28,579 bases of DNA from Saccoglossus kowalevskii (taxonomy: Eukaryota > Hemichordata > Enteropneusta > Harrimaniidae), in NCBI RefSeq assembly GCF_000003605.2, contig NW_003158746.1, positions 86,914 to 115,492 on the forward strand, in the 5' to 3' direction. Positions 3,501 to 27,848 of this stretch are shown here, one piece after another (the first letter of the stretch is position 1; each line of letters starts with the position of its first letter). Below the pieces are notes generated by a model that worked only from the letters and a program-made list of their open reading frames with translations, did not search any database and was not told the DNA's origin. A program made the translations under genes and the position numbers.

Positions 3501-6500
3501 TGAAAGTAATGACACAACTAATTAAGTAAGATCCTCATCAATATTTTTTGACAATATGATCATTTTGTATTTAAAAAAGAGAAAACAAGAATATGTCAAT
3601 GAACTCAATAAATCAGCCAAGTATCTTTTCTAGCTGTCTAGGGAGTCAAGTGCCACTAGAATCATGTCAACCTGTCTAGGGAGTCAATAGCCACTGGGAT
3701 AATGTCAACCTGTCTAGGGAGTTGAGTACCACCAGGATCATGTAAGTCAAGTACTACTGGGATCATGTCAACCTGTCTAGGGAGTCAAGAGCCACTGGGA
3801 TAATGTCAACCTGTCTATGGAGTCAATAGCCACTGGGATAATGTCAACCTGTCTATGGAGTCAATAGCCACTGGGATAATGTCAACCTGTCTAGGGAGTT
3901 GAGTACCACCAGGATCATGTCAGTCAAGTACTACTGGAGCATGTCAACCTGTCTAGGGAGTCAAGAGCCACTGGGATAATGTCAACCTGTCTATGGAGTC
4001 AATAGCCACTGGGATAATGTCAACCTGTCTAGGGAGTTGAGTACCACTAGGATCATGTCAGTCAAGAGCCACTGGGATCATGTCAACCTGTCTAGGGAGT
4101 CAAGAGCCACTGGGATCATGTTAACCTGTCTAGGGAGTCAAGAGCCACTGGGATAATGTCAACCTGTCTATGGAGTTGAGTACCACCAGGATCATGTCAG
4201 TCAAGTACTACTGGGATCATGTTAACCTGTCTAGGGAGTCAAGAGCCACTGGGATAATGTCAACCTGTCTATGGAGTTGAGTACCACCAGGATCATGTCA
4301 GTCAAGTACTACTGGGATCATGTTAACCTGTCTAGGGAGTCAAGAGCCACTGGGATAATGTCAACCTGTCTATGGAGTTGAGTACCACCAGGATCATGTC
4401 AGTCAAGTACTACTGAGATCATGTTAACCTGTCTAGGGAGTCAAGAGCCACTGGGATAATGTCAACCTGTCTAGGGAGTTGAGTACCACCAGGATCATGT
4501 CAGTCAAGTACTACTGGGATCATGTCAACCTGTCTAGGGAGTCAAGAGCCACTGGGATAATGTCAACCTGTCTAGGGAGTCGAGTACCACTGGGATCATG
4601 TCAGTCAAGTACCACTGGGATCATGTCAACCTGTCTAGGGAGTCAAGAGCCACTGGGATAATGTCAACCTGTCTAGGGAGTTGAGTACCACTGGGATCAT
4701 GTCAGTCAAGTACTGTAAAATGACTAATTTTCACTGGGTTTAAATTTCACTGATTTACCATTTCAGGCATATTCAGTGGGTTTTAAATTCACGGTTTCGT
4801 CATTTAGATAATGTGTTCTATGCTAAATTTTACATATTCACTGTGTTTTAATTTAGCGCATTTTTCCAGTCAGCGAAATAAGCTAAATTAAAACCCAGTG
4901 AATAATTACCCCCTTTACAGTACTACAGGAATCATGTCAACCTGTCTAGGGAGTCAAGAGCCATTGGGATAATGTCAACCTGTCTAGGGAGTCAAGAGCT
5001 ACTCGGATCATCAGGAGATTCAAGATGCGGAGGTGCTCAAATAAATGAAATGAAATGAGTCAGTATACTGTACTCACGTCAGTTCTTTTGCCTTTTCATC
5101 AGCATCTTGCAATTTTCTCATTATCAATTGCTCCTTGGGAGTTAGTTTGTTCAGTGATTCTTCTCTTAAATCTTGTAAATGAGTTTTCTCACGCGCAAGC
5201 GCAAAAATCTGCTGCTGCTGATCAATGTCTACTTCTACATCACGTTGATGCTCACGAACCCCAGCCATTCGGGTCGCCATTTTCTAAAAAAGAAAACAAG
5301 CATTTAATGTACTATGCCATATTTTCAATATTTTCAGGTAGCTGTGATCTACAGTCATCTACAAAGTTTATTTATTTGATGAAAAATTATAGAACAGACA
5401 CTTTTATATAAGGCAGCCATTTTTTGGTTTTTACAATATGGATTAAGAATGTAGTAGATTTTGGAGGACATTTGAGAGGTCAAGTTTAAAGGGTTTAGTC
5501 GTCGCGCCACGCATGCACGAGATATATGGGTCTCATATAAACAAAGATGGCAACTTTGACTGTTGCGTGATCAGGGAATACGAACTGAGACGTTTCAAAG
5601 CTTTAGTTAGGTAATTTTCAGGTGATTGGAAGGAATCAAAGGAGTCACCGGTGGCAATCAGTCGCACACAGGTCAAACCTTATACTTGTGAGTGATTTCC
5701 ATTTGAAGAGCGCATTGGATTATGGGGAAATCGAAATCAACACGAATGTCGCACATGCGTATATTTTGTAAATTTGTTTGATGACAAACAGCAATTTTTT
5801 TTTGTCATACATCTTCCTTGAAGAATAAAACTGAATGCATCGCTAAACACCATGCTATAAATTATGGATACTGATTTCTACGATTTTAATTAAAATAAAC
5901 AAGTAACATGTTTGAAAAAACAAACAGAATAGTGAGTGGCGAGTGTCTGCAGTGAAACATTATCTCACCAATAATAGGAATATGTAAATGAATACAAATT
6001 GATATTAAAATTTATGCCACCAAAGAATAACTGTTATTTCAAATTGTTGGGAACATTGTAAATCCTAATTTGATATGTCTATCAATAGTGTGTAAATGTG
6101 TGTAAACTTAGTAGTATTGCTTACTTCCATATGCCTGGCAACAAATGGTAAATTGAGAACTTCTGCCGCTGATGGTCGATTCCCAGGTTCTTTAATTAGT
6201 ACCCTGTAAGGAAATGTAGGACTTTTATTGCAGTATAATGAGTAGATGCAAGTCATTTATTTTCCTAATGTGATCACCTCTGTCTAACAGGCTTAGCTAC
6301 AACAATGTCGTAAAGAAACAAAATACTTCTGTTGAGCAGTGCAAAAGGTGTTTTGCTACTGAAAAGAATCGCATGTTTTTATGAATTTTTTTTTGACAAC
6401 TTCAGACCAAATAGAAATAATTTCCTATTGCTTTGCAGGTATTAATCAAAAAAACATTGAAACAATTCTGCAGATTTATTCAAATGAAAGTTGACAAAAA

Positions 6501-9500
6501 GTTTCAGGTTTTTGAGTTCATCTACATAATAATTTTGATATTCCATTATGCATGGTTACTCATTTAGTTGAAAATAAAATATGTTTCTTACTTGGTGAGT
6601 ATTTCTTGGATATTTTTATCGTATTTATTTGGTATTTTTGGTATCTTTCCTTCCACTATTTTGTACATAACACCCATCAGTGATTGTCCTTCAAAGGCAT
6701 GTTCTAGAGCGCATAGCTCATATAGTATACATGCTATAGACCTGTAATACCGGTAAATAGAATAGAAAAGATGAGTTTTAAGTACCTGTGCAAGTTCCGT
6801 GGTTGCTATGTTACTGAACACAATAGCAACAGTAAAGAAGGGAGGAGGGGTGTTTTTACAGCCAGTCATTTGGGAGACTCAGTTTTACACAAGCTACAGT
6901 TTGGTTATTTGTTGGCACCGAATTTCAAGAAGTTTCAAGAAGTCGAAAATATCACTTTTTACTAAAAATTACAAAAATATTCATCAAAATTAGAGAACTG
7001 AAGATATCATCATGAAATGAACAAATCTAAGAGAGGTCTACCCAAGGTACATATACACCAAGTATCAAAGCATTCAGGCTTGTAGTTTTCAAGCAGAAGT
7101 CGAAAACATTGCAAAAAACATTGACATGGACGACGACGGACAATCACTCATATGATAAGCTCCGCTCGACAAAGTGGACAGCGGAGCTAAAATCTTCCTA
7201 CAAAAAATACGAAAAGAATGATTCTGCACCAGTGCCAGTATTCTTATGTCTTTTGCAAGTCAGGAGTAAATTCTGCAATGTGAAAACATGGTCTGTCCAT
7301 TGCTGTAATATAGATTTGTCTGTAGTGTACATGACCACTACTAGTTGGTGCCTGCAAGTTTGAAAATCCAACTGTTTAGTCAAAGCACAAATGTTAGCCA
7401 ATAACTATCACATTACTTCCGATAATAAATGTCGCCACCTACCACACATCTGATTTTGAGTTGTAACCTTCATGTTTTAAGACTTCAGGGCTCATGTAAT
7501 AAGGAGTACCAGTGAAAGTACTGGCCAGATCTGTGGTACCCATCAACACTCTGGATATTCCAAAGTCACCTATCTTGCACATATTATTCTTCAAAAAAAT
7601 ATTTCGGGTTTTCAAGTCCCTATGTAAAACACGCCTATAATGAAAAGAACATGATATCAACTTAAAACAATGATCTTTTATGTAAGTAAGTTCTCCTTAC
7701 TCCTTTTTAATGTTAACACATTAAGCTCCAAAAATGTTGGTGCACACACACTCTTTTAGATATTTTTCTGTAATATTGCACCAAATAAACATAATTTCCC
7801 ATTAGTGATACTGTAGATTATAATTAAAATGTATAAAAAATATGGAAAACATTATGTTAGAGAAATTGACAGTGTTTATTAAAGGGTTAATGAAATTGTT
7901 ATTTTACAAACATTCAGTGCTACATGTACAATGTATATGCGTTTTATGTACACTTTAAAGGGGAACTGCTCAATCCCATGGATTGCATCTCGTGCTCATG
8001 GGTAATTAACTCTGCCTCTGTCCACTAAGTAAATGATGCTTTGAGCAAGAAAGCGGATGAAATGATGTGCACATATATCAACAACCATGACTTAATGCGA
8101 GGTGCACGTGGTAATGATGTCACATTATTTTCTGACTCAGTACACCTTAATCGCGGCTTTCGCCGTGGAACATCGAAGCTTATTCGTAATTGGATGTCAA
8201 ATGTGCCTGATATTTCAACCCGTGGTAGTGCTAGAGGGATAATTCAAAGCAACAAGCAAAATCGACCAATTTACCACAATACAGGTCAATACAATCATGA
8301 GTACGAACAACGACACTCTGGTTATAATAAAAGGCGGAGTTACATTGGTCAATTCAACAGCTGGCGCAATAATGGTAATGTTCTGCCTCATAATGAAACC
8401 ACTTTATATCAACCTCGTTTCCCAGAACTTGCACGTAACCCAAATTATCACGGATATAGTAATGACCAAGTCAGGTGTTTTCAGTGCGGAGAAACAGGGC
8501 ACATTCAAAAAAAATGCAGACATTCAACAAGAATGAAATGTTGGTCATGTGGACAAGGTGGACACAAACAAAAAGAGAGTCAATAAGTAACGAAATATTG
8601 AAGAAAAACTACAGCACAGACGAATGGGACCACGAATGATGATACAATAAATAAGTAAAACAGTAAATATTCTAACCTGCTATGCATGTAGTCAACAGCC
8701 AATGCAAGCTGGACAAACCAATCCATTATTTGGTTCTGCTCAAATGATTTCCCTTCTTTTTTGGCTTTGGTAATTCTCACATCCAAGTCTCCTCCCTAGT
8801 AATAGAAAAATATAGAGCTGATAAATAAAATATAGATTCATTAATTTTCAGATATGATCAAGTGAAGCACTGAATGACTGGACACTGCTGGCATACTGGT
8901 TGTCGCATCAGACTCATGATCGGTATACCCAAGCTCAAATCCTACCTTAGGCTGAACATCAAAAAGGTCAGCCCTCTACCCTGGGTGAGTTGGCCAGATT
9001 CAATGGGAAGGCCAATTCCACTGGCCGAGATTAATTCACTAAAGAATGCGACTTTGGAGGATCCTTGGGTTAAGGTCACAAGAGCTTGTGTTTGACGAGC
9101 CTGGTTGACGGCAGGGTAGCGCATTCAAATTGCCATTTGATGGGGAGATGTGTCAGCACTAGCACTTGCAATTTGTACATACAAAAATTAGTGATGTTGC
9201 TTATCAATTTTCATGGTAGATACATCAGATTGTAGCTTGATTGAAGGAAATAATTTGACGCATCATTATGCATTTTTCAGCTGAGCTTTGACATACTAGA
9301 ACTTTTGGGCCAATGGTGACGAGCAGCAGCACGAGTCAACAACTGAAGAAACTTTCGGACAAATGAGAGAATGACATTGCAGGCAGGTCCATCTCTTAAA
9401 ATCCCATCAACATACTCACCTCACAATATTCTGTGATAAGGCAAAAAAATTCCATATCTAGAAAGCTGTCAGAAAATCTGACAATACCGGGATGATTTAA

Positions 9501-10353
9501 CCTTGAAAGTAGTTTGGCTTCATGGACGGCATCAACGGTTTCATCAGGTGCTAACTCACCTACAGCAATTTCTTTTAAAACTTTACTATAAAGAAAGAAA
9601 TAACAACCTTGTTAACAGCCACAGAAATATCTTGGTGGTAGTAAAAAACAGCAGCAATCAGTTGAACAACTGACTGGACATTCCTACTAAAGAATTGACA
9701 CTGGTGTGCTATCAGTAACCTAGCAATAGGAGAACACCAGACTCATCTACCTCTTCATCATCAAATGCTAACAACACTTGGGCACATTTGGAGGCTTGAA
9801 TGGTATTCTAAATGCTCTCTTTCATGGGTAATGATGGTCGTGTGATGGCGATGACCTGATGCAGGGGTTGAAATAGCAGTCTATTGTTTCTAGCTTTACT
9901 TTACAATGAGCAATTATAACTGAATGCTCATCTTCACTTTCTTCACAGAGTGACCCACCACTACTCAACCCATCTATCTCTGAATATCTATTCCCACTAA
10001 GAACCCAATTTTATTACATGTCTACAGTCTACAGTTTGGTTGGCAGGCTCCTAAATTTCCGTAGCAGGGAACAAGTCTGGCTTCCAAATTTAACATCCTA
10101 TATCTACCACTATAATAACTAAATAATCCAAGAAATCAACCAAACGCCCAAATCTACTGGACATATACCACATATACCACATAATAAATACTCACAGTTC
10201 TTCATCACCTTTCTTGGTTTTCAAATCAAAAACCAGGAAGGCGGTTCCAAAATTCCCACTGCCAAGTTTTTTCTCAACTCTGTATCTATTGGCCAATACT
10301 CGATGATCACTCTTGTCTTCTTTCGGCTTCTTGATTCCTCGTGACGGCGGCAT
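392..10353 (-). CDS. NEK11: NEK11-like NIMA-related Ser/Thr kinase, whole gene model (10 exons, 3' end unsure)
   Basis: Exons, in transcript order: 10353-10196, 9585-9420, 8795-8677, 7634-7443, 6741-6592, 6203-6125, 5283-5078, 3497-3392, 2719-2491, 529-392. Every junction has an AG acceptor and GT donor, and phase is kept throughout (1543 nt, 514 codons). The protein has a glycine loop LGSGNFGT (about residues 30-37), a VLKEI lysine near 57, HRDLKTRN (catalytic Asp about 154), DFG (about 171-173) and TGTPYYMSPE (about 189-198). A coiled-coil-like segment with LTPKEQLIMRKLQDADEKAK follows in exon 7. That segment, plus KVLKEI-VGEL and VDYMH, is what I recall of vertebrate NEK11. NEK11 acts in the G2/M DNA-damage checkpoint (family knowledge). 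The C-terminal half beyond exon 8 does not resemble vertebrate NEK11, and the 3' end may lie outside the window. Confidence 0.88.
1278..1603. mobile_element. PIF/Harbinger-like MITE with TTA target duplication
   Basis: The ends are exact 14-bp inverted repeats, TCCTCGGGGGCGGA at 1278-1291 and its complement at 1590-1603. They are flanked by direct TTA at 1275-1277 and 1604-1606. A 3-bp TWA duplication is the mark of PIF/Harbinger transposition (family knowledge). The 326-bp element is richer in G+C than the intron around it, has no long ORF and contains an inner CACCGCC/GGCGGTG hairpin near 1550-1577. It is non-autonomous. Confidence 0.65.
2034..2205. mobile_element. Possible diverged copy of the CTGTAAA MITE family
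   Basis: It starts CTGTAAAATACT and repeats phrases also seen in the element at 4713-4920 (TTTTCACTGA, TTTCAGCG, AAATTAAAA). No clean right end or target duplication is visible, so this is a weak call. Confidence 0.3.
2213..2336. repeat. 124-bp unit with 13-bp inverted ends
   Basis: GTCGTCACCTGCG (2213-2225) faces CGCAGCTGACGAC (2324-2336), 12 of 13 bases complementary. The interior is CpG-rich (GACGCATGCGCGC) against AT-rich surroundings. It could be a small MITE; no target duplication is clear. Confidence 0.35.
2491..2719 (-). CDS. NEK11: NEK11 exon 9, six tandem GT-x-x-Y decapeptide-like repeats
   Basis: Acceptor GATAACAG|GCTGCTGG, donor CAGAAG|GTAGGT; 229 nt, entered in phase 0 and left in phase 1. 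Gly-Thr (once Gly-Gln) recurs at about residues 400, 411, 421, 431, 441 and 451, each usually followed by an aromatic Tyr and acidic residues: GTVIYHDE, GTLVYHGE, GTYYEPED, GTMLYERED, GTVYQTRVD, GQVVYHDD. A run of five Asp ends the series. The DNA repeats GGTAC about every 30-33 bases. This is absent from vertebrate NEK11 as I recall it, and recalls the GTM-type linkers of Hippo kinases MST1/2. Membership of the NEK11 transcript rests on phase and position. Confidence 0.72.
2720..3391. other. Intron between exons 8 and 9
   Basis: AT-rich intron. Its last part includes the tandem-like phrase CAGTGAGGTCCTAGGGAATCAGT / GGGTCCTAGTGAG around 3155-3200. I see no gene or mobile element. Confidence 0.6.
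3392..3497 (-). CDS. NEK11: NEK11 exon 8
   Basis: Acceptor TTTCACAG|AATG, donor GGGGAG|GTAACT; 106 nt, entered in phase 2 and left in phase 0. It codes a short polar segment with HTRANLAENIHRKALIQG and a Gly/Arg-rich end (WQGGRGE). I recognise no domain. The support is the splice sites, the phase fit and the position after exon 7. A 1.4-kb minisatellite lies in the intron before it. Confidence 0.7.
3640..5010. repeat. Minisatellite: 38+38+25 bp higher-order array, 101-bp period
   Basis: The basic unit is 38 bp (GTCAACCTGTCTAGGGAGTC and on to GGGATAAT). A second 38-bp variant carries GTTGAGTACCACCAGGATCAT. A shortened 25-bp unit begins GTCAGTCAAGTACTACTGGG. In the right half these alternate strictly: the 25-bp unit starts at 4196, 4297, 4398, 4499, 4600 and 4701, five exact 101-bp steps. 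The left part (3640-4080) is less regular. A transposon at 4713-4920 interrupts it. The array lies in the NEK11 intron between exons 7 and 8. Confidence 0.93.
4713..4920. mobile_element. 208-bp TA-inserting MITE (Tc1/mariner-like) inside the minisatellite
   Basis: The ends CTGTAAA and TTTACAG are inverted and flanked by TA at 4711-4712 and 4921-4922. Removing the element and one TA rejoins a normal 25-bp minisatellite unit (GTCAGTCAAG-TA-CTAC), and the next unit then starts exactly in register (4936 against 4726 plus 210). No ORF. TA duplication suits the Tc1/mariner superfamily. Confidence 0.85.
5078..5283 (-). CDS. NEK11: NEK11 exon 7 (coiled-coil linker)
   Basis: Acceptor TTTTTAG|AAAATGGCG, donor CTGAC|GTGAGT; 206 nt. 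It is rich in Glu, Gln, Lys and Arg and reads as helical coiled coil. The block LTPKEQLIMRKLQDADEKAK is very close to what I recall in vertebrate NEK11 after the kinase domain, so this exon, more than the kinase core, separates NEK11 from other NEKs. Confidence 0.9.
5284..6124. other. Intron between exons 6 and 7
   Basis: No exon seen. A CpG-containing stretch at 5490-5760 (GTCGTCGCGCCACGCATGC, AGTCACCGGTGGC) stands out from the AT-rich rest and may be an old repeat or an internal regulatory region; nothing in it decides this. Confidence 0.5.
6125..6203 (-). CDS. NEK11: NEK11 exon 6 (end of kinase domain)
   Basis: Acceptor CTTACAG|GGT, donor GGAA|GTAAGC; 79 nt. It codes VLIKEPGNRPSAAEVLNLPF and VARHME. 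The N-RPSA block is the conserved end of NEK kinase domains (helix H to I, with the invariant Arg). Confidence 0.9.
6592..6741 (-). CDS. NEK11: NEK11 exon 5 (kinase helices F-G)
   Basis: Acceptor TTACAG|GTC, donor CCAA|GTAAGA; 150 nt. It codes SIACILYELCALEHAFEG, then GVMYKIVEGKIPKIPNKYD. This continues the C-lobe after the split Trp codon (TG|G). The KIVEG-IP block is typical of NEKs. Confidence 0.9.
6742..7442. other. Intron between exons 4 and 5 with an AGCTCCGCT hairpin repeat
   Basis: Much of 6960-7190 reads like a dispersed repeat and ends in a perfect hairpin: AGCTCCGCT (7158-7166), 13-base loop, AGCGGAGCT (7180-7188). No coding exon was recognised. Confidence 0.5.
7443..7634 (-). CDS. 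NEK11: NEK11 exon 4 (catalytic loop and activation segment)
   Basis: Acceptor TTATAG|GCG, donor TGTG|GTAGGT; 192 nt. It contains HRDLKTRNIFLKNN (catalytic Asp and Asn), KIGDFGISR (metal-binding Asp), LMGTTDLASTFTGTPYYMSPE (activation loop and P+1 loop) and the YNSKSDVW helix-F motif. All key residues of an active kinase are present. Confidence 0.93.
7990..8586 (+). pseudogene. LINE ORF1 remnant: esterase-like end plus CCHC zinc knuckle
   Basis: A frame open from about 8026 to 8586 codes about 185 residues, with a stop just upstream and no credible start. The first part (CTYINNHDLM, then LFSDSVHLNRGFRRGTSKLI) resembles the last block of the SGNH esterase-like domain in CR1/L2-type LINE ORF1 proteins. 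A polar stretch follows, then a zinc knuckle CFQCGETGHIQKKC and a second, CWSCGQGGHKQKES, whose last Cys is Ser. It lies antisense in a NEK11 intron. It is a decayed 5'-truncated piece; a gag-like origin is the alternative. Confidence 0.6.
8677..8795 (-). CDS. NEK11: NEK11 exon 3 (kinase C-lobe start)
   Basis: Acceptor ACTAG|GGAGG, donor GCAG|GTTAGA; 119 nt, entered in phase 0 and left in phase 2. It codes GGDLDVRITKAKKEGKSF, then NQIMDWFVQLALAVDYMHS, the helix D and helix E region before the catalytic loop. A LINE ORF1 remnant on the other strand ends about 90 bp away in the next intron. Confidence 0.9.
8876..9195 (+). mobile_element. tRNA-derived SINE
   Basis: The head looks like a tRNA gene: a box A-like TGGCATACTGG near 8889, an anticodon arm region GCATCAGACTCATGATCGG with CAT in the loop, and a box B-like AGCTCAAATCC near 8933 at normal spacing. 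A non-tRNA body follows to about 9195. The anticodon-arm likeness is to tRNA-Met. No clear tail or target duplication was found, so the right end is approximate. Confidence 0.55.
9420..9585 (-). CDS. NEK11: NEK11 exon 2 (kinase N-lobe)
   Basis: Acceptor TATAG|T, donor GAG|GTGAGT; 166 nt. It codes KVLKEIAVGELAPDE, then HEAKLLSRLNHPGIVRF and ends at LITEYCE. This holds the ATP-anchoring lysine, the helix-C glutamate and the hinge. The segment lines up without gaps to the vertebrate NEK11 N-lobe as I recall it. Confidence 0.9.
9586..10195. other. Intron between exons 1 and 2
   Basis: No ORF, structured repeat or RNA gene recognised; ordinary intron. Confidence 0.6.
10196..10353 (-). CDS. NEK11: NEK11 coding exon 1 (start codon, glycine loop)
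   Basis: The ATG reads from 10353. The exon codes about 52 residues: a basic N-terminus (MPPSRGIKKPKED), then NRYRVEKKLGSGNFGTAFLV, the first kinase strand and glycine loop. The donor is GAACT|GTGAG (phase 2). The acceptor TTTCAG upstream at 10510-10509 suggests this exon begins at 10508 with about 155 nt of 5' UTR, so a further noncoding exon is expected upstream. The chosen ATG puts about 22 residues before the kinase domain, usual for NEKs. Confidence 0.88.
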
Positions 10354-10508
10354 GTCGAAGCATTTATTTTCCCCACCAATTTAAATAATTGATGCTCCTC
10401 AAAATGTACTTAATCAATTACAGTTGATCAACGTCTTAACAATAACAGTATTTAGTAGTAGTGACCGAATAAATTAAAGATTAGTTTCAATCACATCACT
10501 TGGTTTGT

Positions 10509-12907
10509 CTGAAATGAGAGCACAAATATAACAAAGTTTTAGTTACTTCATGTAGTTAATTATAGAAAATAAACAAATTTAACCTAGTTTGACATAGTTA
10601 TGCAGGTTACTCTACTGTAAATGGTGTCAACTTGACTGAACCAAAAATTTTGATATATTAGGCGCTACAATTTAATACCCCGGTATAGGGTATATACAAG
10701 ATTCAGTGATGTGGCGCTGACACATCAACTGCAAAAATATATTTGCCTGACAATGTATGTCTTGTCCTATGACAATTACAAAATATTTGAGTACTCGACA
10801 AGTGTGAGATTTTGCTTTTTTTACAGCAAGAATATATTGTATACTAGTATGTCCTTTTCATTGCATAGTACCAATATGGCCTAGCTATTTTCGTTTGGCA
10901 AGAATATACTAGGACAGTACCATATACAACTTTGTCGGCGTATATTGTTTTTAGCATGTGGTTCTAATTATGGATGATTTTCACCTTTTTTATGCATGAG
11001 GTGATGCTAAAACACGTTCTTTAAAAGCATGAATGTTACATTAATATGAATGTCTTACATTTTATTTTTTAGGTACGCAGTATTATTTGTCATACAATGC
11101 TTCAAAAAACGATTTTTTTTTAATATGAGCAAGTAATAAAATGATAATTGTGGCGCAATTTAATGACGCTAATTAAGTGTTGTACATGGCACAAGTAAGT
11201 CTGATTATTTCTATAGACATTATAATATAATGAAGTATATTACATTCAATTATTTCATAGTGTAGATGTTAAAATTACAGTTTATTGTACATTTGTAATG
11301 ATAAATCAGGCCATAAGTTAAGTACTTTTAACAAATTCTAATTAGTCTGTTTCTAAGCATGTAGCTATGAGAATACATTTATATATGCTTACAAAATAGT
11401 ATGAAATGGTAAAATGGAAATGAGTGTTTCTAATACAGATACAGATCTGCCAAATCCTGTTTTTCACTTTTGAAAAGAAAACGTCATCATATACGAGGTC
11501 ATCAAAGGAGCGTTGAAGTTTTGAAGACTATCAAATTAGCTTTGTCAGAAATCAAGGTGCAGAAATTTGTAATGGAGTTTCGTAGTAGGTATGTGGGCTG
11601 CGGCAAGTAGTGTTTTCCTGGCACTCGCATCATGGGCTGCTGTATTCACTGGACACAAGCTATGTCCAGAAAGGTTGGGCAGCTCAGATTGCAAGTTGCC
11701 TATAATGCGAACGGCAATACTTATGGCTACATCTGACTATCGCTACCTTAATGATCTATCAGATTATTAAGATATTCAACTTATTGACAGCGCTATCACT
11801 AGAAGAGACAGGACAGATGCATTCTAAAAGTGTGCACCTCTAACTCATCTTGAACTGAAATCCAACCCACATACATACATACAATGTATAACCAAATTAT
11901 TTTTATACTAAATATAAATTAAAGATTTTGATGGAAAGACATGTGTGTATAATCTAAAGGGACATCCATGTATTATTCGGGCCAAACAAAATACAGGTGG
12001 TTCCAATAATGCACTGCACTCAAATATTTTTAAATTTGTTTTTCTTTCAGCAGACATTATTTACATTAAGATTACAGTAAAGTCTTCCTAATTTGTCCAA
12101 AATCAGTAATGATGAATAAATTAAGTTTCATTGAGATCTTGGGTAATTTTGAATAATTTCTTTATGTTTGCCCAAAAGAAGGCAATTATTTTTGTTTTAA
12201 TTGGTTTCTGGTATTTCTAACAGTACAACGTTGTTCAAGTGTTGGTATGAACAATAAGAGAGGGGCGCGGATTACATTACATTCTTTGTATAATAGGTGT
12301 ATGGACAGGCAACAACTTGTCGCAATCATCAGGGTCCCAGTGGTAGCCCTGCAAGTGTATGATCCTTTCCCCACAGCACTGCACCATAATATGGTGCCAA
12401 GACTAAGAGAAAAATGTTATACCCTACCATTATACACGAGGTCGAAGTAACATAATTAATTCAGTGTAGATTATATTTTTATGACATGGAACACTGGATC
12501 TACATGTACCTGCACTTCGCAAAAGCGGGGAGACTGGTGAATGAGATAACGTCACGACAATTGAAGACATGAAACATGTAGGGGAGCTTGCAAGTTCTTG
12601 ACGCTGTATCACATTTATAATCGTAACGCCCATCACGGTTACTAAAAATTAGAACCGTGCTTCCATGCAAAAATGTATTAGTCTGTTCGCATTTGGATAA
12701 CATAACAATACGTATGTCGAGACGAGTGTTCGACAACGTTTCAACTTAATTAAGAAATTAAGGAAACTGTAGCATGCGGTTTTATATCATACAACGTTAT
12801 ATAGAAACACAACAACACAAACAACAACAACAACACCAACAACAGAACTACATAACATTAAAAAGTAACAAGTGTCTATATACTAAGAGTGCAAACCGTC
12901 AACAAAC
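10509..12907. other. First intron in the NEK11 5' UTR (inferred)
   Basis: AT-rich, with no recognised gene. A short coding-like piece at 11580-11840 on the plus strand (reading MRTAILMATSDYRYLNDLSD before stops) may be an old transposon scrap. The intron call depends on the proposed acceptor at 10509 and donor at 12907. Confidence 0.4.
12806..12845. repeat. Imperfect (AAC)n microsatellite
   Basis: A run of AAC/ACA triplets with a few changes. Confidence 0.8.
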
Positions 12908-13340
12908 CTTAGGCGGCCATCTTGTGATGTCAAGTTAATGACTTCAGTGGACCTTCTCAGCTGCTGCTGCCAACCGCCGTCACTCGGTGTTATGTAGCTC
13001 ACAGGCGCTGTCAATCATATGAACAAACTATGTGCTATGTTATTTGTTTAGTGTGAGACCTGTAATGAAAAACTAATCTCAATCAGACACCACCAAACTT
13101 TTCAACAGCGTACTAGGTCACCGTAATACGCAAAGCACCATGGGAACATGTACACTAACTGATCTGGGCATGCGCCATTGAAGAAACGAAAACGAGGCAA
13201 AAGGAACTTCCCCCTAATAATTGTTTCTTACGCAAGCGACGTTGCAAAAAAACAATTGTACCACGTACAGTTCCTCTTCTTCGTGTTTTACACTAGACAG
13301 GTCACGGATTGAGGCGTGTGCGCAAATTATTTGTTCGCAG
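12908..13340. promoter_or_regulatory. Shared promoter region between NEK11 and ASTE1
   Basis: This is about 430 bp between a minus-strand donor AAG|GTTTGT (12908/12907, proposed NEK11 exon) and a plus-strand donor CGCAG|GTAAGA (13340/13341, proposed ASTE1 exon). It is richer in CpG than its surroundings. It holds CAAGATGGCCGCC (reverse of 12912-12924), close to the YY1 site AAGATGGCGGC, and GGGCATGCGCC (13166-13176), close to the NRF1 palindrome. Both are common in animal two-way promoters (established knowledge). No TATA box stands out. Start sites cannot be placed. Confidence 0.5.
13280..13340 (+). other. ASTE1: Proposed noncoding first exon of ASTE1 (donor end fixed, start unknown)
   Basis: The sequence ends at a consensus donor TTCGCAG|GTAAGA (13341). 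The CDS exon of ASTE1 begins after an acceptor at 15450, so an upstream 5' UTR exon is required, and this is the best donor seen in the promoter-like region. The left limit is a guess. Confidence 0.4.
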
Positions 13341-14050
13341 GTAAGACGGAGAAACAAATTGGCGTGTTGCAACAAATGTTATTTATTCACAGGGACTTGA
13401 CGATCTAAGTATGGCTGGTATTAGCAGAAGAACAAAATGCTTGCAGCTCTCACGTGGGTGTATTATGAGTGGTAGGCGAATGTACCGGCGACTGACTAAC
13501 TATGCCGAACCTACTTTAGGTCATTATTTATTATCCAAGAAACGTTCCGAACGCATGTACAATGAATGTGTCAGCAGAAATCAAATTTGACTGGACATAG
13601 AAAAAATCGAACCATATTGTAATTTTGTATAATAGTGTATTGTATTTGAAAAAGTTCTTCCCCATAGATTATTAAATGAAATAATTAAGGTACCATTAAC
13701 ACAGATTATGAGATTTCTAACATTTGCCATATCCATTACCAAAATAAGCCATCACAAACAGGTCTTTTCACACATCTTGTGTGCTTGTTATTTATTTCAT
13801 TATTTCTTTCATACCGTTCTTCTTTGGAATGCGTGAGTGTTTCTGAATAAATAAAATAATCGCATTCAATTAGTTTAAAGACAATTTCCAGTATTCTAAT
13901 ACAACGAACAAACAAACAAGTCATTCACAGCCAAGTCAGCTAGCTACACACATCAAGCTCCATGTTGCACACAACCCCCCCCCCCCCAATAACTTACTGA
14001 ATCAACCAATACTTTTTTGTACACATGCAGTAGTGGGGAACTATATTTAA

Positions 14051-14168
14051 GCAATAACCCCCTGCCGAAGTCTGGTATACCACGAGATATTGCACAATTC
14101 ACGACATATATGGAGTGAATTGTGCAATATCAAGTGGTATACCCAACTTCGGGGGGGGGGGGGTTGCT
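14051..14168. mobile_element. Foldback (hairpin) MITE-like element
   Basis: Two arms of about 53 bp pair almost fully around a 12-bp centre: TGCACAATTCAC (14091-14102) against GTGAATTGTGCA, GGTATACCAC against GTGGTATACC, and GCAATAACCCCC against a G-run then TTGCTAT. Mismatches are few, and the G-run (about 14 G) has expanded on one side. No coding capacity. The superfamily is not clear. Confidence 0.65.
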
Positions 14169-15037
14169 ATTATATTATACCAGTATATTGACAATTCAAT
14201 AAAACTAGTAAAAAAGAGTTTACTTGCATCTACTATAAGATCATGATTATGGCCCTTGAACATGAATATTTATAAGAAAAGTATGTAGTTGTACACTGGT
14301 TGCATCCAAAAATTACATACGCAACACAGTTCAAATTGAATACAAACTATTTTTTAATCCGTGTGAAAATGAAAACGTATCCACAGTGAATAGAGCAGTA
14401 TAAACACAAAAATTAGCATAACAAAAGATGACCTTTTACTGACTGCGTCAACGCCATTTGAAATACAGGGTCGTGTACAATTTGGATCATTAAAAAAACA
14501 GTGGTTTAGGTTTGTGTGGCAAACGACAATCACCCAACGACCAACGCTCACAACTTGGATCCTGCCATTAACAAAAATATTATGATTATATAATTTTTCA
14601 GATGTTTTTGATTCGGTATTTTTTAAAAATATTTTTTCAGAATTCAACCACTATATTTCCCTAAAAATCAAATACTACCAGTTTTATGTAATTTCATATT
14701 AAACCTGTAGTCAATTCATGTTCCAGGGTCATTTGGCTTAGCACAAATAATGCAAAGTACATATCAAAATATTATATTATTATATTCATTCACACTTCTG
14801 TTTAAATATTTCAATTACATTCCTGGGCTAGAAATGCACTCCATAGAACTTGCATGTAGATGTGAGGTGCATGACAAAATCGACAACAATTCTTATATAT
14901 TTCAAAGAACAAAACCGGTGATATACTATTTTGACACATAAGCAAAGCAAAACATGGTAATATTTTTAATTCTGTGTCTTGATATCATTACTGAGTATTT
15001 ATGGAACAGACGACAAACTAGCCTGACAAGTTGGCGT

Positions 15038-15140
15038 NNNNNNNNNNNNNNNNNNNNNNNNNNNNNNNNNNNNNNNNNNNNNNNNNNNNNNNNNNNNNNN
15101 NNNNNNNNNNNNNNNNNNNNNNNNNNNNNNNNNNNNNNNN
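15038..15140. other. Assembly gap (103 N)
   Basis: Run of N inside the inferred ASTE1 5' UTR intron; the true length is unknown. Confidence 0.99.
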
Positions 15141-15486
15141 GAATTCTCAAAAAATTACAATAATAGTAACTGGATTTAAAACAATAAGTTGTATTATTAC
15201 TTGTGTCAGGCTTCCCTGATCAGTTGAAAATATTCAGAGAATGACTCATTTGCATAATCATTCACAATTGACTGATTACTGTGTATTATACTTTTCATTT
15301 ACATTTCATTTACAACGATGCAAATTATGCAGCTTTCGAAAATCGTGCAGTGTATTTTTCAGTATGTTTCAAAAGCTACAAGTTTCCATGAATCTGCATC
15401 TATGACTAAACATGTACACATATATACTAGTAAATATTTTTCTATTCCAGATTGAATGGAGACAGATAACAATATTTCACACCAAG

Positions 15487-17805
15487 ATGGGCGTTCTTGG
15501 TCTCACTTCCTTCATCGACAATAATCGCCAACTATTGCAGTCTCACAATCTTCATGATACACAGGTAGTTATTGATGGCCATGGCGTTGTACACTGGCTT
15601 TACTTTCAAAACAAGATTGACTTCCGCCATGGTGGCAACTACAGAGACTTTCAAGAGCTGTGTTACAGATTCTTCAAGTCATTTAAGTTATGCAAGGTTC
15701 AGCCTTATATCCTCTTTGATGGTGCATATGACCTGAATGATCGGAAACTTGCAACTGTTAAAAGTCGTGCCAAACAACAAGTTCAGCGTGCACTTAATAT
15801 CATTAAAGGTGGTGGAGATAAAATCTTACCTCTGTTTGCCTTTGAAGTTTTTCTAAAAGTCCTCAAGAAGCTTGACATTCCTTATATTTATTGTGATTTT
15901 GAAGCTGATAATGAGATTGTTGCTCTGGCCAACTCATGGAGATGTCCAGTTATTGGACAGGATAGTGATTTTTATGTGTTTGATATCAGAGCAGGTTATA
16001 TACCTCTTAATTATCTTTGGTGGAAGAATCCCTGTCCATTGTATGAAGAAAGCGACATCTTACCTACAGATGAGTATCCAGTCTTAGGAGGAAAGACTCG
16101 CAAACTTGGGAGTTACTGTTTGAAGACTGAAATGTATAGGTTGTCAAAATTCTGTTCACACTTCAGTGTAAATGAGGATATGGTTCCCCTGATGGCAAGT
16201 TTACTTGGAAATGACTACATAGCACCAGAAATGTTCAATGATTTCTTTTGCCAGGTAAAACTTCCAGGACAGTGCTTGCGACGTGTTTCCAAAAGACATA
16301 TACATATTAAGGGAACTATTAACTGGTTATCCAAGTATGAATCAGTAAGTAGTGCTATTACAGATGTACTGAAATGTACAAGGAAAGCATCACGTAGAGA
16401 CATACAAGCAAATCTTGAAGCCTCCATGGAGATGTACAATCTAGAAATGGGGTCAAAATTTGTTAATTATTTTGAGAGAAATCATCTTGATTCAAGTGTC
16501 TTGGAGATTTATGAAGGCCCCACATTACCAGGCTGGTGTGTGGCTTTATTCAGGCAAGGTCGATTACCTTCATTTTGTGTGAATGTCATGTCACAAAAAA
16601 GGTATTTCACCTATGATATGTTAGAAGATGTAGACGAGCCAAGTTGTCACAATTCTTCTTGCATGATTAGAAGACTTCTATATGGCATTCTTCTGAAAAG
16701 TGTGAAAGATATTGAAGGACAGGATTCATGCCTGAATACCCAAGCTCGAGCAGGAGTAGAATGGCAGGATGGAACAACTCAAACTCAGACTCCACTCAAA
16801 TCAAAACCCCTGTGTCAACATGCATTTAATAAGCCACTTTTTGTTGAAGAATTTACCAGATACAAGTCATCTTTGAAACAATGTTTCATTGAAGCATTGG
16901 GCTCACTTCCTCTCTATGGAGAGCTACCTACACTCTTCGACATACCATCTCTAACCCCATCGAAGAAGAAAAGTCTTCTGGATGAAGTTCTTGGTACTCA
17001 AGCAGCCAAACTTGATGCAGTTCCAAAGGAACTTCAATTTCCCATTTGTGTTTCTATATACTGGATTACAATGGCAGAACCCAAGGTTCATCTTCACCAT
17101 TTCCAAGGACTGCTACTGTGTTTTCTCAGGTGGTACTTTATGGATATTTTCAGCACTGAACAAACTAAAGGGGTAGATGATTCCGGTTCTGAGGCTTGTG
17201 ACAAAGCAATACAAGATGCACCAACAGTTCATGAGAAAACAAGCACAAGAAAAGATGCTGATGAAAGGAAGAACATTCCACTGAAGCAGTTACTTCTATC
17301 AGCTTATAGGCAGTATGAAAATGTGTCAAAGCAGTCTTATTTGGACCTAAATGCACTTCAAGCATGTGCACAATGGCAAAGCTGTATGAAGTATTCAATG
17401 TTTGTAAACTCGCTGCTTGGTGAGATATATCCTACCCCTGACATCTGCAAACTTTTCCATGGCAGTCTGGTACATAGTATGAGCACAACAGTGAAGGCAT
17501 TGAAGAAAGCTGACCCTACTGAGTGGCTGCAGAGCAAATTGTTTGCAGACATCCCAAAGGTATTAGAAATGTATATAGAATTGAACCACACTGTCATGTC
17601 AGTGGTTCCTTCAAGTGCGTTCCACCAGACAAAATCTAAGAAGCATTTAGCTAAATCTTTCATAGCAGAGAACACTGATTTACCTTCTCAAGAAGAGTGT
17701 AACAATGAACCAACTATTGAATTTTGTTCAAATCCACTTCTGTCATATGAAGTGACATGTGATGTGCAGAATCGGTTTGCTGGATTAATGGAACCTGATG
17801 ATTAG
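15487..17805 (+). CDS. ASTE1: Protein asteroid homolog 1, XPG/FEN1-family nuclease
   Basis: The whole 772-residue protein is in one exon. The acceptor TCTATTCCAG is at 15450 and the ATG at 15487, chosen because it gives the family start MGVLGLTSFI; the same frame runs upstream only into intron. The XPG N-region has VVIDGHG (Asp30) and LFDGAYD (Asp78). The internal region has FEADNEI (Glu139, Asp141), GQDSDF (Asp159, Asp161) and LLGNDY (Asp243). These match the metal-binding acids of FEN1-type nucleases. The C-terminal half keeps vertebrate ASTE1 blocks as I recall them: LHHFQGLLL, QWQSC, LFHGSLVH, NRFAGLM. Human ASTE1 is shorter (about 679). It is reported as a structure-specific endonuclease working with shieldin in double-strand break repair (family knowledge). 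Confidence 0.93.
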   Translation: MGVLGLTSFIDNNRQLLQSHNLHDTQVVIDGHGVVHWLYFQNKIDFRHGGNYRDFQELCYRFFKSFKLCKVQPYILFDGAYDLNDRKLATVKSRAKQQVQRALNIIKGGGDKILPLFAFEVFLKVLKKLDIPYIYCDFEADNEIVALANSWRCPVIGQDSDFYVFDIRAGYIPLNYLWWKNPCPLYEESDILPTDEYPVLGGKTRKLGSYCLKTEMYRLSKFCSHFSVNEDMVPLMASLLGNDYIAPEMFNDFFCQVKLPGQCLRRVSKRHIHIKGTINWLSKYESVSSAITDVLKCTRKASRRDIQANLEASMEMYNLEMGSKFVNYFERNHLDSSVLEIYEGPTLPGWCVALFRQGRLPSFCVNVMSQKRYFTYDMLEDVDEPSCHNSSCMIRRLLYGILLKSVKDIEGQDSCLNTQARAGVEWQDGTTQTQTPLKSKPLCQHAFNKPLFVEEFTRYKSSLKQCFIEALGSLPLYGELPTLFDIPSLTPSKKKSLLDEVLGTQAAKLDAVPKELQFPICVSIYWITMAEPKVHLHHFQGLLLCFLRWYFMDIFSTEQTKGVDDSGSEACDKAIQDAPTVHEKTSTRKDADERKNIPLKQLLLSAYRQYENVSKQSYLDLNALQACAQWQSCMKYSMFVNSLLGEIYPTPDICKLFHGSLVHSMSTTVKALKKADPTEWLQSKLFADIPKVLEMYIELNHTVMSVVPSSAFHQTKSKKHLAKSFIAENTDLPSQEECNNEPTIEFCSNPLLSYEVTCDVQNRFAGLMEPDD

Positions 17806-19490: not shown

Positions 19491-19869
19491 ATTAATAGTC
19501 CCTGTTTTTGGACATCGTCCGAACTGGGACAAAAAATCAGATTAGATCTCCAGACTATAAACATAATTAGACACCATGGTATACATTGAGTGATGTCAAG
19601 TGTTTCGAAAACACATCCTGCTTCATATGTGGTGCCCGCTATATAGTATTCTGAGTTTTAAGTGACAAGTGACATTGATGCCATCTAAAACCATCTTTGT
19701 ACCAGTGTTATTGTATTTTATAGTGTCAGTAGTATCATTAATCTCAAGTTTAACTGGATATACCAATGTAATATAATCACTAAATTTAGAATTGTTGATG
19801 GTAAATACATCATAAATTTATCCAGCATACACCCCTCACACAGGAACATATGTACAACTATACCCTAAC

Positions 19870-20112
19870 TGCATCTCCCAACATCCAACTCTCCAGCTAA
19901 CCTTCAACTCCAACTCCAACTCCAGCCCTTCATTTTTTCTCTACTATTCTTCTATTGTCAATCTCAACACTCAGTCTCTATGTACACAGGATCGCCCTAA
20001 TAGATACTCTCAGAGATGGGTTGTACTGTTTTATCCCCATTGGCTATGTCTTGCCCGCCATGATGCCACTACAATGCAGTGGCTACATTTCTGTTGATTG
20101 ACATGTCCCTAC
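19870..20112. other. 243-bp stretch present only in the left arm
   Basis: Bounded by CCCTAAC (19863-19869) and CCCTAC (20107-20112); the right arm joins directly across this point (near 28196). It contains a short TCCAACTCCAACTCCAACTCC-like run near 19910. The near-identical borders suggest microhomology deletion in the right arm. Confidence 0.7.
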
Positions 20113-20454
20113 AATTCCATTACATTGTGCAATCATAAACCTTACATTAAGTAAATGAACCTTTGGTAACTATGCCATATTATTTTTCAATATCACACAA
20201 TTGAATTGCTTCTATTGCAGCAAGGTAACCCCCTACTGTGAAATCAATTTACTTAGTGCTACCACAGGAACGTATTAACATCTAGCTGAGTAATACAATC
20301 ACTATCTATAGAAACCTAGTGAAAAATAAGCCGATATGTTTTTCCATCTGGATGTTTTTACTATTTACATTTAAGTTTGAGGACATACTAGTAGTGGCTA
20401 ACTTAACTGGTATGAGAAAATATGCAACACGATTAAGAACGATTATGTTATAAA

Positions 20455-22758
20455 CAGGGCCGTAGTTAGCTTTTTTCACTAGGGGGGCAGCAAATGTGTT
20501 TTTTTTAAGTTTCGTATAAATGCGTAGAGGTGTGCAGTTGCGCCATATGTTAATGCCTATGGGGAGGTATATCTATCTATTTTTAACAATAAAATCATCT
20601 TGATATATTTTATGAATATATACAAAACACGGGGTATTACAGTATGAACTTTAATACCTGAAACACTTTTGTTCTATCTTCATATATAAGCAACATTAAT
20701 GTGCAGGACTGATTAATACAATTGATAGTTGTACAATACACAGTTTATGTTTACAACTTTGGCGATAGCATATTAATTTATCTCCAGTTAGCTTTTCTCG
20801 AATAAATACTTCTGGGGAAGGAATGATGTCTGTGCCTCGGTATACTAGTAACTTTGTCTTGAGCCATGCTAGATCGTGTCCATAACTTCACCCGCCAAAG
20901 TGCAGAAAAAGAACGTTCACATGACACACTTCCGACAGGTGTTGTAAAGAATGTTGTGAGAATTCTGTGGATGGCTGAGAAATAGTTGACATCGATATCA
21001 CAAACAGCAAGAGATGAAGCAGCATCATTGGGCCTTTGCTCAATTGGTGTATCACTGAACTTTGTTATCCACTTCTCAATTTCAATATTCAAAAATTCAT
21101 CCCTTTGCAAAATTTCCCATAATAGTTGTTAATTGAGGTCACATGGGTTGATGTGAGCTGACCAATGTTGCATGGTAAAAGTGCTTGTGCAGCTATTATA
21201 TCACAGTGATGATCAGCAAATCGCGTCTCAAGAAATTGGATGACATGATCCGAGAAAAGATACATTCACCTTAAAATACTCACTGGGCGTCTGAGTAGAA
21301 CTTTGTCCTGCATTAGACCAATGAGCTTGTCTGCCTGAAGTTCTGGGTTTAGTGATTGTGATATCCAAGGCACCTGCAATGCTTGTTATTCTTTCCCATA
21401 ACTTGTCCCATCTGTCATCACAACGTGATTTGCGAATGGCTTCTTTACGTTTTTGTATGCCTTCGCCAAGTCACAATTTACCAACTGTAATATTATTGTC
21501 ACACAAGCACAGTAACTTAAAATGAATTGAGCCACAACCAGTGCCACTATGAATTGGGGATTGATTAACATACGAGCATATACACTTGCGTCACGTTTTG
21601 CATCACAATTGCTTCTATCCCTAATAGCTTCCATGGACTCTAAAATTATCTTGTATTTGGCAAGCAGGGATGACAGCGTAGTAACCTTAGCCGTCCAGCG
21701 TGTAACACACAGTTTGGGCACTGATGTTTTTTTGTCGGCCTTTGCGTTTCATCCATTAAAAGTTCACTAATATCATCATCACTATTATTAGCTACACTTA
21801 TAAAGATTGTCTTTCGTTTGGCACTACCACCCAAAGACCCAAGTAAGTTTTTCAACACTGTCAAACAAGTTACGGATTTCTGGAATCTGTCTACAACCAG
21901 CTGCAAGAGCTAATTCGAGGGCATGTGACTGACAATGGACATATGTTGCGTTGCTGTACTGTCTCTGAATAATAGCTTGTACGCCATTTTTGCCAGAACG
22001 CATCACTGCCGCCCCATCATACCCCTGTACAACCATGTTATCCATATTCAAACTATATCCTGTAAGTGTGTTAACTATTGTGTCAGCTATCGTACGCGCA
22101 TTCATTTTCTCCAGTTGTACAACGCCAAAGAAATTCCCTCGTAATTTGTCTTTGTACACGTAACGTATACAAAGACTGATTTGTTCACAAGTTGCGCAAT
22201 CCTGGGTTTCATCTGCCATAATACCCCGGTACTCGGGGATAGAAGTAACAATTGATCTTCTCATTTATTTCTCACAAAGATGGAGTATTTATTTTGTATT
22301 TGTGGGGAAGTATATTTAGCGTTTCGACTTGCACGTTTTAAATGTTCTGATAAGTCATGATCATATCTTGATTTCCAATCCATGAAAAATGCAAAATTGC
22401 CATTCTCGGCCTGATCCTCCATCACCCAGTTTCCTCTAAAAGGTATACCCCGCTGCCCGAGTACAAGTACGATGTCAATGATGGATAGTATACCCTTCTT
22501 TGTTATAATCTGGCTCTCTGCAGCTTCTTTATTTAATTTGGAAATAATATCTGTGCCGACATTTTGAGTACAATCTAAGAAGTTTCGAACTTTTTCAGTG
22601 GAAATAATGTGGTCAACACTTTTCGCATGTTTGTCAAGATAACTATCTTTGACACCAACTGCTTCTTTCCAGTTCTTATATCCTTGTTGTACAAACACAG
22701 GGAGCCCAGGCACTATACATTCTGAACAGGCCACGCCTCCAACTGTGCCGTGCGTTCG
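20455..22758 (-). mobile_element. hAT DNA transposon, left copy (3' terminal repeat seen, 5' end not found)
   Basis: The 3' end has the hAT-type terminal repeat CAGGGCCGTAG starting at 20455, followed inward by a G-run (AGGGGGGCAGC). The transposase remnant lies at 20778-22758. The expected matching repeat beyond the 5' end of the transposase was not found in 22758-23500, so the element is 5'-truncated or its end is too worn to see. Confidence 0.7.
20778..22758 (-). pseudogene. hAT transposase pseudogene (ZMYM1-like), left copy
   Basis: The pieces run in order from the N-side. TTF-type zinc-finger remains: FVQQGYKNWKEAVGVK, then LDKHAKSVDH. DUF4371-like core: GIMADETQDCATCEQISLC and VQGYDGAAVMRSGKNGVQ, with VHCQSHALELALAAG. 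RWTAKVTTLSSLL. GRQAH. hAT dimerisation end: TTPVGSVSCERSFSAL, ending TAA at 20778. Broken by an ATGA overlap near 22261-22264, TAG at 21826-21824 and a one-base loss at the seven-A run (21727-21733). It starts inside the zinc finger. Not active. Confidence 0.85.
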
Positions 22759-22975
22759 GACAAACCGTTAATTATTCATAAATGGAGTCAATTTATGTAG
22801 TTTTCTTGATTTATACTGCAGATATTGGTAAAATATAGGTAAGGCTTTGGCGAAATTTGAAAGAGCAACTAATATTCTTCAGCCTGGTATTTTTTATAGA
22901 TTTTATTCGTCATTCTGTTCGTCTGTATTTTCGAGTTTAAAAAATGTGAGCTGGCTGGAGCTCCCTGTGGTATAA

Positions 22976-23457
22976 ATGGCGAATCAATGCCTATTTACCT
23001 CCCATGAAATGTTATATCGTCTACCTGACGATACCGGAAATTTGTACGATTTTACGGGCTTGAATTTTACATCTTCATCACAGGAAATTCACCGCTTGGA
23101 AAAATCAGCAGGGTCTTGGTATATTTGGTCTCCACAGCAATCTGTTGTACTGGGATGTTTTTCACTGAAATGCCGCACCGAAATGAACCGTTCATGCGAG
23201 CTGCAATGGATGCAAAGATATTTGCAGAAAGGCGACTGGGTCCGCTTTCCTGCGCGGTTCAGTTTGAAGTCAATTTAAAAACTATGTTTGAACTAATGCG
23301 GGAAGAAGTTGACAGAATTTCAAACATGAACGATGCAGAATGTATTCGAATATTTTTGAATATATTCGGGATCGTTTACGAAATTCTGTCCTTTGCTTCC
23401 CGCCGCCACGAGGCATTGCAGACCCTGTGGAATCTCGACCACCAAGAAGATTTTTGA
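22976..23457 (+). pseudogene. Unrecognised coding-like ORF, frameshifted, crossing the inner breakpoint
   Basis: From ATG at 22976 (just after TATAA) the frame reads MANQCLFTSHEMLYRLPDDT and on to WYIWSPQQSVVLG. Near 23150 a shift of one base leads into a second frame that continues MFFTEMPHRNEPFMRAAM and ends LWNLDHQEDF at TGA 23457. The two frames together look like one protein of about 160 residues, with Cys early and a helical second half. I know no family for it. It is divergent from the transposase, 240 bp away. Confidence 0.4.
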
Positions 23458-27837: not shown

Positions 27838-27848
27838 CTACGGCCCTG
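27838..27848. repeat. hAT terminal inverted repeat, right copy
   Basis: CTACGGCCCTG is the complement of CAGGGCCGTAG at 20455-20465. The neighbouring C-run GCTGCCCCCCTAG matches the left G-run. Sequence beyond it is still shared by both arms, so the arms include host or older-repeat DNA outside the hAT element. Confidence 0.75.

Follow-up and report, generated by a model that had tools for sequence, protein, structure and literature searches.

A head-to-head NEK11-ASTE1 gene pair and a candidate divergent promoter in the hemichordate Saccoglossus kowalevskii

In the stretch of Saccoglossus kowalevskii DNA analysed here (28,579 nucleotides, referred to as the window), NEK11 on the minus strand and ASTE1 on the plus strand lay head to head and diverged from each other. 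The pair is probably an ancestral one, kept since before the split from mammals, with both genes most likely transcribed outward from a single CpG-rich, TATA-less region. The genes, their orientation, the junctions of the coding exons and the splice-like signals were directly visible in the sequence. The first-pass annotation had delimited the pair by positions 10353 and 15487, which were found to be the start codons of NEK11 (minus strand) and ASTE1 (plus strand), with the two genes pointing away from each other. The two ATGs were 5,133 bp apart, and the longest stop-to-stop frame between the genes was 98 aa (among the listed frames of at least 60 aa).

Gene models and identity of NEK11 and ASTE1

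NEK11 consisted of seven in-frame coding exons that ran on the minus strand from 10353 down to 5078. Coding exon 1 (10196..10353) contained the start ATG (10353), was in frame and was followed by the donor GTGAGT. Exons 2 (9420..9585), 3 (8677..8795), 4 (7443..7634, with the HRDLK, DFG and SPE motifs) and 5 (6592..6741) had AG/GT junctions and kept the frame. The kinase domain ended in exon 6 (6125..6203), and exon 7 (5078..5283) contained the start of the post-kinase tail, LTPKEQLIMRKLQDADEKAKEL, which matched the tail of a provisional human reference; both exons were bounded by AG/GT junctions, and the LTPKEQ...LQDADEKAK segment was located at the end of exon 7. Neither an exon beyond 5078 nor the C-terminus of NEK11 was found by eye in the minus-strand frame list of the window. 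The Pfam Pkinase domain covered residues 24-283 of the joined protein (4.1e-60). It was complete and of the NIMA type, with GxGxxG at residue 31, HRDLK at 152, DFG at 171 and SPE at 196.

The best PDB match of the protein was NEK1 (6.3e-69). The kinase domain showed 60% identity (155/260) to a provisional human NEK11 reference sequence, against 40% to NEK1 and 41% to NEK2, in a comparison confined to these three NEKs. NEK4 is a neighbour of NEK11 that one phylogeny calls hard to resolve. An assignment of the minus-strand gene to NEK1 or NEK2 was considered and is unlikely given these identities. The tail agreed with that of the provisional human NEK11 reference in 20 of 39 columns (E 2.5e-09 in a four-sequence database), although this was no contest between families because the NEK1 and NEK2 references carried no tail. 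The kinase identity and the matching tail start agreed with the earlier description of the gene as NEK11-like, and its orthology to NEK11 is supported against NEK1 and NEK2.

ASTE1 was encoded by a single plus-strand exon (15487..17805), an uninterrupted ORF of 772 aa. Residues 1-723 aligned nearly end to end with human ASTE1, likewise a provisional reference (319 bits, 28% identity; 33% in a second alignment). The Pfam matches XPG_N (residues 1-97, 20.6 bits against a cut-off of 22) and XPG_I_2 (residues 129-175, 15.7 bits against 24.2) followed each other in the expected order, both under their curated cut-offs. Seven FEN/XPG-type acids (D30, D78, E139, D141, D159, D161, and D243), corresponding to the catalytic set of FEN1, were kept, and all of them were identical in the provisional human reference. 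A core FEN-family enzyme (FEN1, EXO1, or GEN1) was also considered and is unlikely, since no related PDB entry matched at E up to 10; the sole match was an unrelated entry (E 1). No relative of ASTE1 was detected by tblastn in 128 pattern-matched prokaryote stretches and 63 viral ones, as expected of such collections. The near full-length alignment and the seven acids agreed with the first naming of this gene, and orthology to ASTE1 is supported.

The candidate promoter and predicted noncoding exons

The candidate divergent promoter was placed at 12850..13500, where the CpG observed/expected ratio (o/e) was 0.93 and TATAAA was not found. The ratio was 0.53 over the NEK11 span and 0.25 in the ASTE1 coding sequence; the intergenic DNA on either side of the candidate reached 0.70 and 0.61, above the gene-body lows, which weighs against a promoter reading. 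The 500-bp bins 12501-13000 (o/e 1.09) and 13001-13500 (1.02) were the only adjacent pair at or above 1.0. Equally ranked CpG-rich stretches were present at 1.0-1.7 kb and at 22.8-23.6 kb, so CpG content alone is no mark of a promoter. The latter stretch lay in and beside a hAT arm, as would suit the idea that the CpG-rich DNA at 12.5-13.5 kb has nothing to do with NEK11 and ASTE1 and stems from a recent transposon insertion or serves as the promoter of another gene. This origin is very unlikely, because the stretch had no second copy of at least 60 bp within the window and the inverted repeats touching it were imperfect and 16-19 nt long.

Several sites resembling transcription factor motifs were located in the candidate region. 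The YY1-like site AAGATGGCCG (12914..12923, minus strand, in the NEK11 direction) was alone in the window in matching AAGATGGCSG exactly; with one mismatch allowed, the pattern occurred three times against 1.16 expected, a count reached in 5 of 100 shuffles. The NRF1-like site GCATGCGC (13168..13175, plus strand) was one of two in the window, and the E-box CACGTG (13451..13456) was one of four, each counted on both strands. The ETS-type string that was scanned had no match at the hemichordate locus, and Rfam at gathering thresholds had none in the window. For at least one other divergent gene pair, YY1 is reported to contribute to promoter activity (PMC2713978).

Splice signals were scored over 10354-15486, with a donor maximum of 12.7. 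The best plus donor of the interval, CAG/GTAAGA (13338..13346, last exonic base 13340), scored 11.1 and is predicted to end the first exon of ASTE1; a plus donor of this strength turned up in 18.7% of 300 randomised full intervals. The acceptor ...CTATTCCAG (last intron base 15450) scored 10.7, the fourth best on the plus strand and the best downstream of 13340, and would open the predicted 5' untranslated part of the ASTE1 ATG exon (15451..15486, plus strand). On the minus strand, the acceptor with the last intron base 10509 scored 10.0, the second best in the interval, and would open the predicted 5' untranslated part of the NEK11 ATG exon (10354..10508). A clear donor for the NEK11 first exon was not found by scoring the minus strand of 10354-15486. 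The best minus donors, 11059 (7.8) and 10985 (7.2), were located 1.8-1.9 kb from the CpG-rich stretch on the NEK11 side, and the best ones near the stretch, 13515 (6.9) and 12428 (6.8), fell just inside the range of the coding donors (6.4-11.4).

In the model that we favour, one region at about 12.85-13.5 kb would drive NEK11 and ASTE1 outward. The ASTE1 transcript would open with a short noncoding exon whose last base is 13340, joined by a 2.1 kb splice to the ATG exon at 15451, and a noncoding exon with an unplaced donor would be spliced to the NEK11 ATG exon at 10508. We infer these noncoding exons, a single promoter serving both genes and selection for that promoter. The YY1-, NRF1- and E-box-like sites and the best plus donor, all within the CpG-rich stretch, count for a shared promoter, as do the position of the best acceptor past 13340 just before the ASTE1 ATG and the good acceptor ahead of the NEK11 ATG exon. 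The unclear donor of the NEK11 first exon and the 5.1-kb interval, compared with the overlapping or close starts in mammals, count against it. For the short shared promoter proposed earlier, promoter-like features were present at 12.9-13.4 kb, but its shortness fitted poorly with the distance between the ATGs and with a NEK11 first exon that could not be confidently placed.

Alternatively, an ancient linkage may now be served by separate promoters, NEK11 starting at 10.4-11.1 kb and ASTE1 at about 13.2 kb, after the spacing had grown by insertions. This history is rather unlikely, although the separation of the ATGs and the remoteness of donors 11059 and 10985 from the CpG-rich stretch would suit it, and a palindrome with 51-nt arms (14058-14159), together with transposon pieces elsewhere in the window, indicates that insertions do occur in the region. 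Near the NEK11 start, however, the CpG o/e was merely 0.53 (10501-11000) and 0.72 (10001-10500), the good acceptor ahead of the ATG exon suggests an upstream exon, and the mammalian starts overlap or lie close.

Ancestry and retention of the pair

Published data backed the statement in the first-pass annotation that the human genes also lie head to head on chromosome 3. The gene table of PMC3013100 places Nek11 and Aste1 head to head on mouse chromosome 9, where the coordinates of the two genes share 133 bp, and the text of the paper gives matching genes and relative orientations at human 3q22.1; a human methylation region is reported at -163 and 82 bp from the NEK11/ASTE1 starts (PMC8550939). 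The divergent orientation was therefore conserved in another lineage, that of mouse and human. The same pair order in both points to common ancestry, and the arrangement was very likely inherited from a common ancestor with mammals. Selection on a shared promoter, as first suggested, is plausible, but one retained pair is no proof of selection by itself.

The order may also have been retained passively, by chance or because breaks harm the regulation of one gene, with no joint control. This is somewhat unlikely. A study of 49 animal genomes calls local gene order strikingly conserved, so that one retained pair is not exceptional, and NEK11-ASTE1 is not named in the available portion of the conserved-pair table of a 64-species survey (PMC2871058). 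In the available text of the same survey, however, conserved metazoan divergent pairs were enriched for related function, and in human cells the products of NEK11 and ASTE1 both have links to the handling of DNA damage. Passive retention is compatible with a physically shared promoter and does not exclude the favoured model. The main text of a medaka paper on bidirectional promoters named neither gene, and our literature search, limited largely to the main texts of openly accessible papers, found no account of a NEK11-ASTE1 shared promoter or of the pair in an invertebrate.

ASTE1 had been described in the first pass as an end-resection nuclease, which was right as to the nuclease but imprecise, since reviews have it cutting 3' overhangs and thereby limiting resection (in the human 53BP1-shieldin setting). 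A bolder version of the shared promoter, in which the pair would be a DNA-damage expression unit predating vertebrates, its divergent promoter under selection since early animals for a joint dose of kinase and nuclease and surviving a 5 kb drift of the ATGs, is distinctly unlikely. If a shared promoter is real, a checkpoint kinase and a nuclease that limits resection would be linked in their expression in a hemichordate, away from the 53BP1-shieldin context of human cells, and the locus would offer a natural test of whether the NEK11-ASTE1 pairing concerns co-expression. Shieldin is centred on vertebrates.

Comparison with known systems

The hemichordate kinase had its motifs and the tail start in common with human NEK11. 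S273, a CHK1 target in human NEK11 (PMC7997185), was absent, the aligned hemichordate residue being Gly; Ser273 is a regulatory site and was not taken as family-defining. Human ASTE1, the asteroid homologue of the FEN/XPG superfamily, aligned over nearly the full length and had the seven acids in common, whereas the hemichordate protein was longer (772 aa with several insertions, against 679 aa in the provisional human reference).

The promoter-like intergenic region and the YY1-like site had a counterpart in the bidirectional promoter of PREPL-C2ORF34 (NRF-2, YY-1). The PREPL and C2ORF34 genes are 405 bp apart and their promoter was tested by reporter, EMSA and ChIP, whereas the hemichordate distance was longer and the signals were those of the sequence only. 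In the mouse, Atp2c1 is the gene after Aste1, whereas hAT inverted arms at 19.6 kb followed ASTE1 in the hemichordate; no ATP2C1 piece was recognised by eye in the listed frames of the window. In mammals, the starts of the two genes overlap or are separated by a few hundred bp at most, whereas the hemichordate ATGs were 5.1 kb apart. The two genes and their divergent orientation were common to the mouse, human and hemichordate loci.

The NEK11 gene and its product

Seven minus-strand coding exons (10353-10196, 9585-9420, 8795-8677, 7634-7443, 6741-6592, 6203-6125 and 5283-5078) were joined in frame from the ATG of NEK11, with GT at 7/7 donors and AG at 6/6 acceptors of exons 2-7, to give a 356-aa product. 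The product contained a complete protein kinase domain at residues 24-283 (Pfam Pkinase, 4.1e-60). Among the best 60 of 753 matches to solved structures, NEK1 was the best, followed by NEK2 and NEK7 and then by other kinases; one entry among the NEK-type matches was a fusion whose title carried part of a NEK-type name. Compared with an unverified reference sequence of human NEK11, the product showed 53% identity over 339 columns from the kinase domain into the tail. The kinase domain alone was 60% identical to the human NEK11 reference (155/260), 40% to NEK1 and 41% to NEK2. This side-by-side comparison covered NEK11, NEK1 and NEK2; NEK4 is described as hard to separate from NEK11 in a NEK phylogeny (PMC2031824). 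In the tail, 20 of 39 columns matched the human NEK11 reference, and the NEK1 and NEK2 references, which were kinase segments from the structure matches, could not compete over this region. The CHK1 site of human NEK11 is given as Ser 273 in a review (PMC7997185). The human reference sequence carried the required Ser at 273, a partial check on its accuracy, whereas the aligned residue of the S. kowalevskii protein was Gly, so the CHK1 link may not apply to it.

The remainder of NEK11 beyond 5078 was not located within the window on inspection of the minus-strand frames by eye. A tandem array with 38-, 63- and 101-bp spacings occupied 3543-5049, just past the last exon found. An 84-aa open frame at 2471-2722 (-) contained repeated GT-VYH-like units, matched nothing in Pfam up to E 0.1, and may be either a downstream NEK11 exon or a chance frame. 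On the opposite strand within a NEK11 intron, a gag-like 185-aa ORF (8029-8586, +) encoded a CCHC zinc knuckle (1.5e-06).

ASTE1 and the transposon-like DNA downstream

The plus-strand ASTE1 ORF (15487-17805) was intronless and encoded 772 residues. Residues 1-723 aligned with a human ASTE1 sequence, likewise an unverified reference, at 28% identity (319 bits), and a second alignment gave 33%; identity this low suggests a non-vertebrate source. The XPG_N and XPG_I_2 domains were found in the right order, both under the Pfam cut-offs. A PDB search up to E 10 matched the protein to no FEN-family chain. This fits a divergent member of the asteroid type, but it also leaves the putative family assignment resting on the unverified human sequence and the two weak domain matches. 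The acidic residues D30, D78, E139, D141, D159, D161 and D243, the putative catalytic set by comparison with FEN1, were identical in the two proteins. ASTE1 is reported to act with shieldin and to cut 3' single-strand overhangs, thus limiting resection (PMC8785701, PMC12599495).

Downstream, two inverted arms (19649-23124 and 25155-28407, ~3.3-3.5 kb each) were 98-100% complementary piece by piece and carried hAT transposase pieces (DUF4371, Dimer_Tnp_hAT); 24534-24932 contained a third, partial copy. The arms are young, oppositely oriented hAT copies or else an artefact of assembly. An ASTE1-like 47-aa fragment (28408-28548, +), 55% identical to residues 362-408 of ASTE1 (E 1.2e-12), began at the first base beyond the outer arm and met a stop soon after. 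It is a second, probably broken ASTE1-type copy, lying by the inverted repeat and near the window edge.

The interval between the two start codons

The first-pass annotation had placed a short promoter common to both genes at 12.9-13.4 kb. The two ATGs were 5,133 bp apart. Scored with simple splice-site weight tables, acceptors were found upstream of the ATGs of NEK11 (last intron base 10509, minus, 10.0) and ASTE1 (15450, plus, 10.7). Since both lay just upstream of the ATGs and within the range of coding-exon acceptors (9.3-12.1), a noncoding exon probably lies farther upstream in each gene. The top plus-strand donor of the whole interval was CAG/GTAAGA at 13340 (11.1), followed by 11194 (9.5). 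Three plus acceptors outscored the one before ASTE1, all upstream of 13340; downstream of this donor the pre-ASTE1 acceptor ranked first. With first-order Markov randomisation, a donor scoring at least as high occurred in 1.2% of 1000 501-bp stretches on one strand, and anywhere in the full interval in 18.7% of 300 randomisations.

CpG o/e was 1.09 in 12501-13000 and 1.02 in 13001-13500, compared with 0.57 for the whole window, 0.53 and 0.25 for the NEK11 and ASTE1 gene spans, and 0.70 and 0.61 for the flanking intergenic DNA. These were the only adjacent pair among the 6/58 bins reaching at least 1.0. The YY1-like string AAGATGGCSG had a single exact match in the window (12914-12923, reading in the direction of NEK11); allowing one mismatch gave 3 (1.16 expected), a count reached in 5/100 shuffles. 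In at least one head-to-head pair tested elsewhere, YY1 is reported to contribute to promoter activity (PMC2713978). The segment 12850-13500 contained one of the window's two GCATGCGC sites, one of its four CACGTG sites and one CCAAT, against 1.33 expected by length only. TATAAA and ETS, CRE and Sp1 strings were absent from this segment in the string scan.

We consider it moderately probable that one divergent promoter at ~12.85-13.5 kb fires both ways. This CpG-rich, TATA-less promoter would drive both genes, each beginning with a noncoding first exon and a long first intron. The next likeliest reading is that the pair is ancient but the two genes start transcription separately. Against the shared promoter, minus-donor scoring of the interval gave no clear NEK11 first-exon donor in the CpG-rich stretch, and the top minus donors were instead 11059 (7.8) and 10985 (7.2). 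Those in or near the stretch were 13515 (6.9), 12428 (6.8), 13454 (6.1), 12510 (6.0), 13003 (5.3) and 12908 (5.0); with coding-exon donors at 6.4-11.4, 13515 and 12428 could serve, though neither is convincing. CpG content as a promoter mark was also weakened by windows of equal rank at 22.8-23.6 kb (in and beside a hAT arm) and 1.0-1.7 kb. Under the single divergent promoter, the first introns may have lengthened through insertions, one insert-like palindrome being present at 14058-14159. This palindrome (51-nt arms, 84% complementary, bounded by runs of C and G) and a 103-base N gap (15038-15140) both fell inside the predicted ASTE1 first intron.

Comparison with the pair in other animals

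The conserved head-to-head pair proposed earlier, with start codons at 10353 and 15487, was borne out in its arrangement: the genes were divergent, in the same order as in mouse and human. Mouse Nek11 is listed at 9:105064797-105297854 (reverse strand) and Aste1 at 9:105297722-105308088 (forward strand), with Atp2c1 next; these coordinates give an overlap of 133 bp where the two genes begin (PMC3013100). Human 3q22.1 is described in that source as having these genes with their relative orientations unchanged. The divergent order is therefore common to two mammals and this animal. A human differentially methylated region is listed at -163 relative to the start of NEK11 and 82 relative to that of ASTE1 (PMC8550939), and in duck one candidate region comprises three genes, ATP2C1, ASTE1 and NEK11, strands not given (PMC9795613). 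The linkage was almost certainly inherited by descent, since two particular genes out of many thousands are unlikely to have come together independently in one orientation.

Selection for joint control of the two genes is a more tentative proposition. Because conserved metazoan divergent pairs are reported in a 64-species survey to tend toward functional relatedness, joint expression would be a reasonable hypothesis by analogy; NEK11/ASTE1 was not named in the accessible part of its conserved-pair table (PMC2871058). The searchable literature yielded no description of this pair from an invertebrate. Head-to-head pairs that share a bidirectional promoter are already known as a class, and the NEK11/ASTE1 pair can be seen in mammalian annotation.
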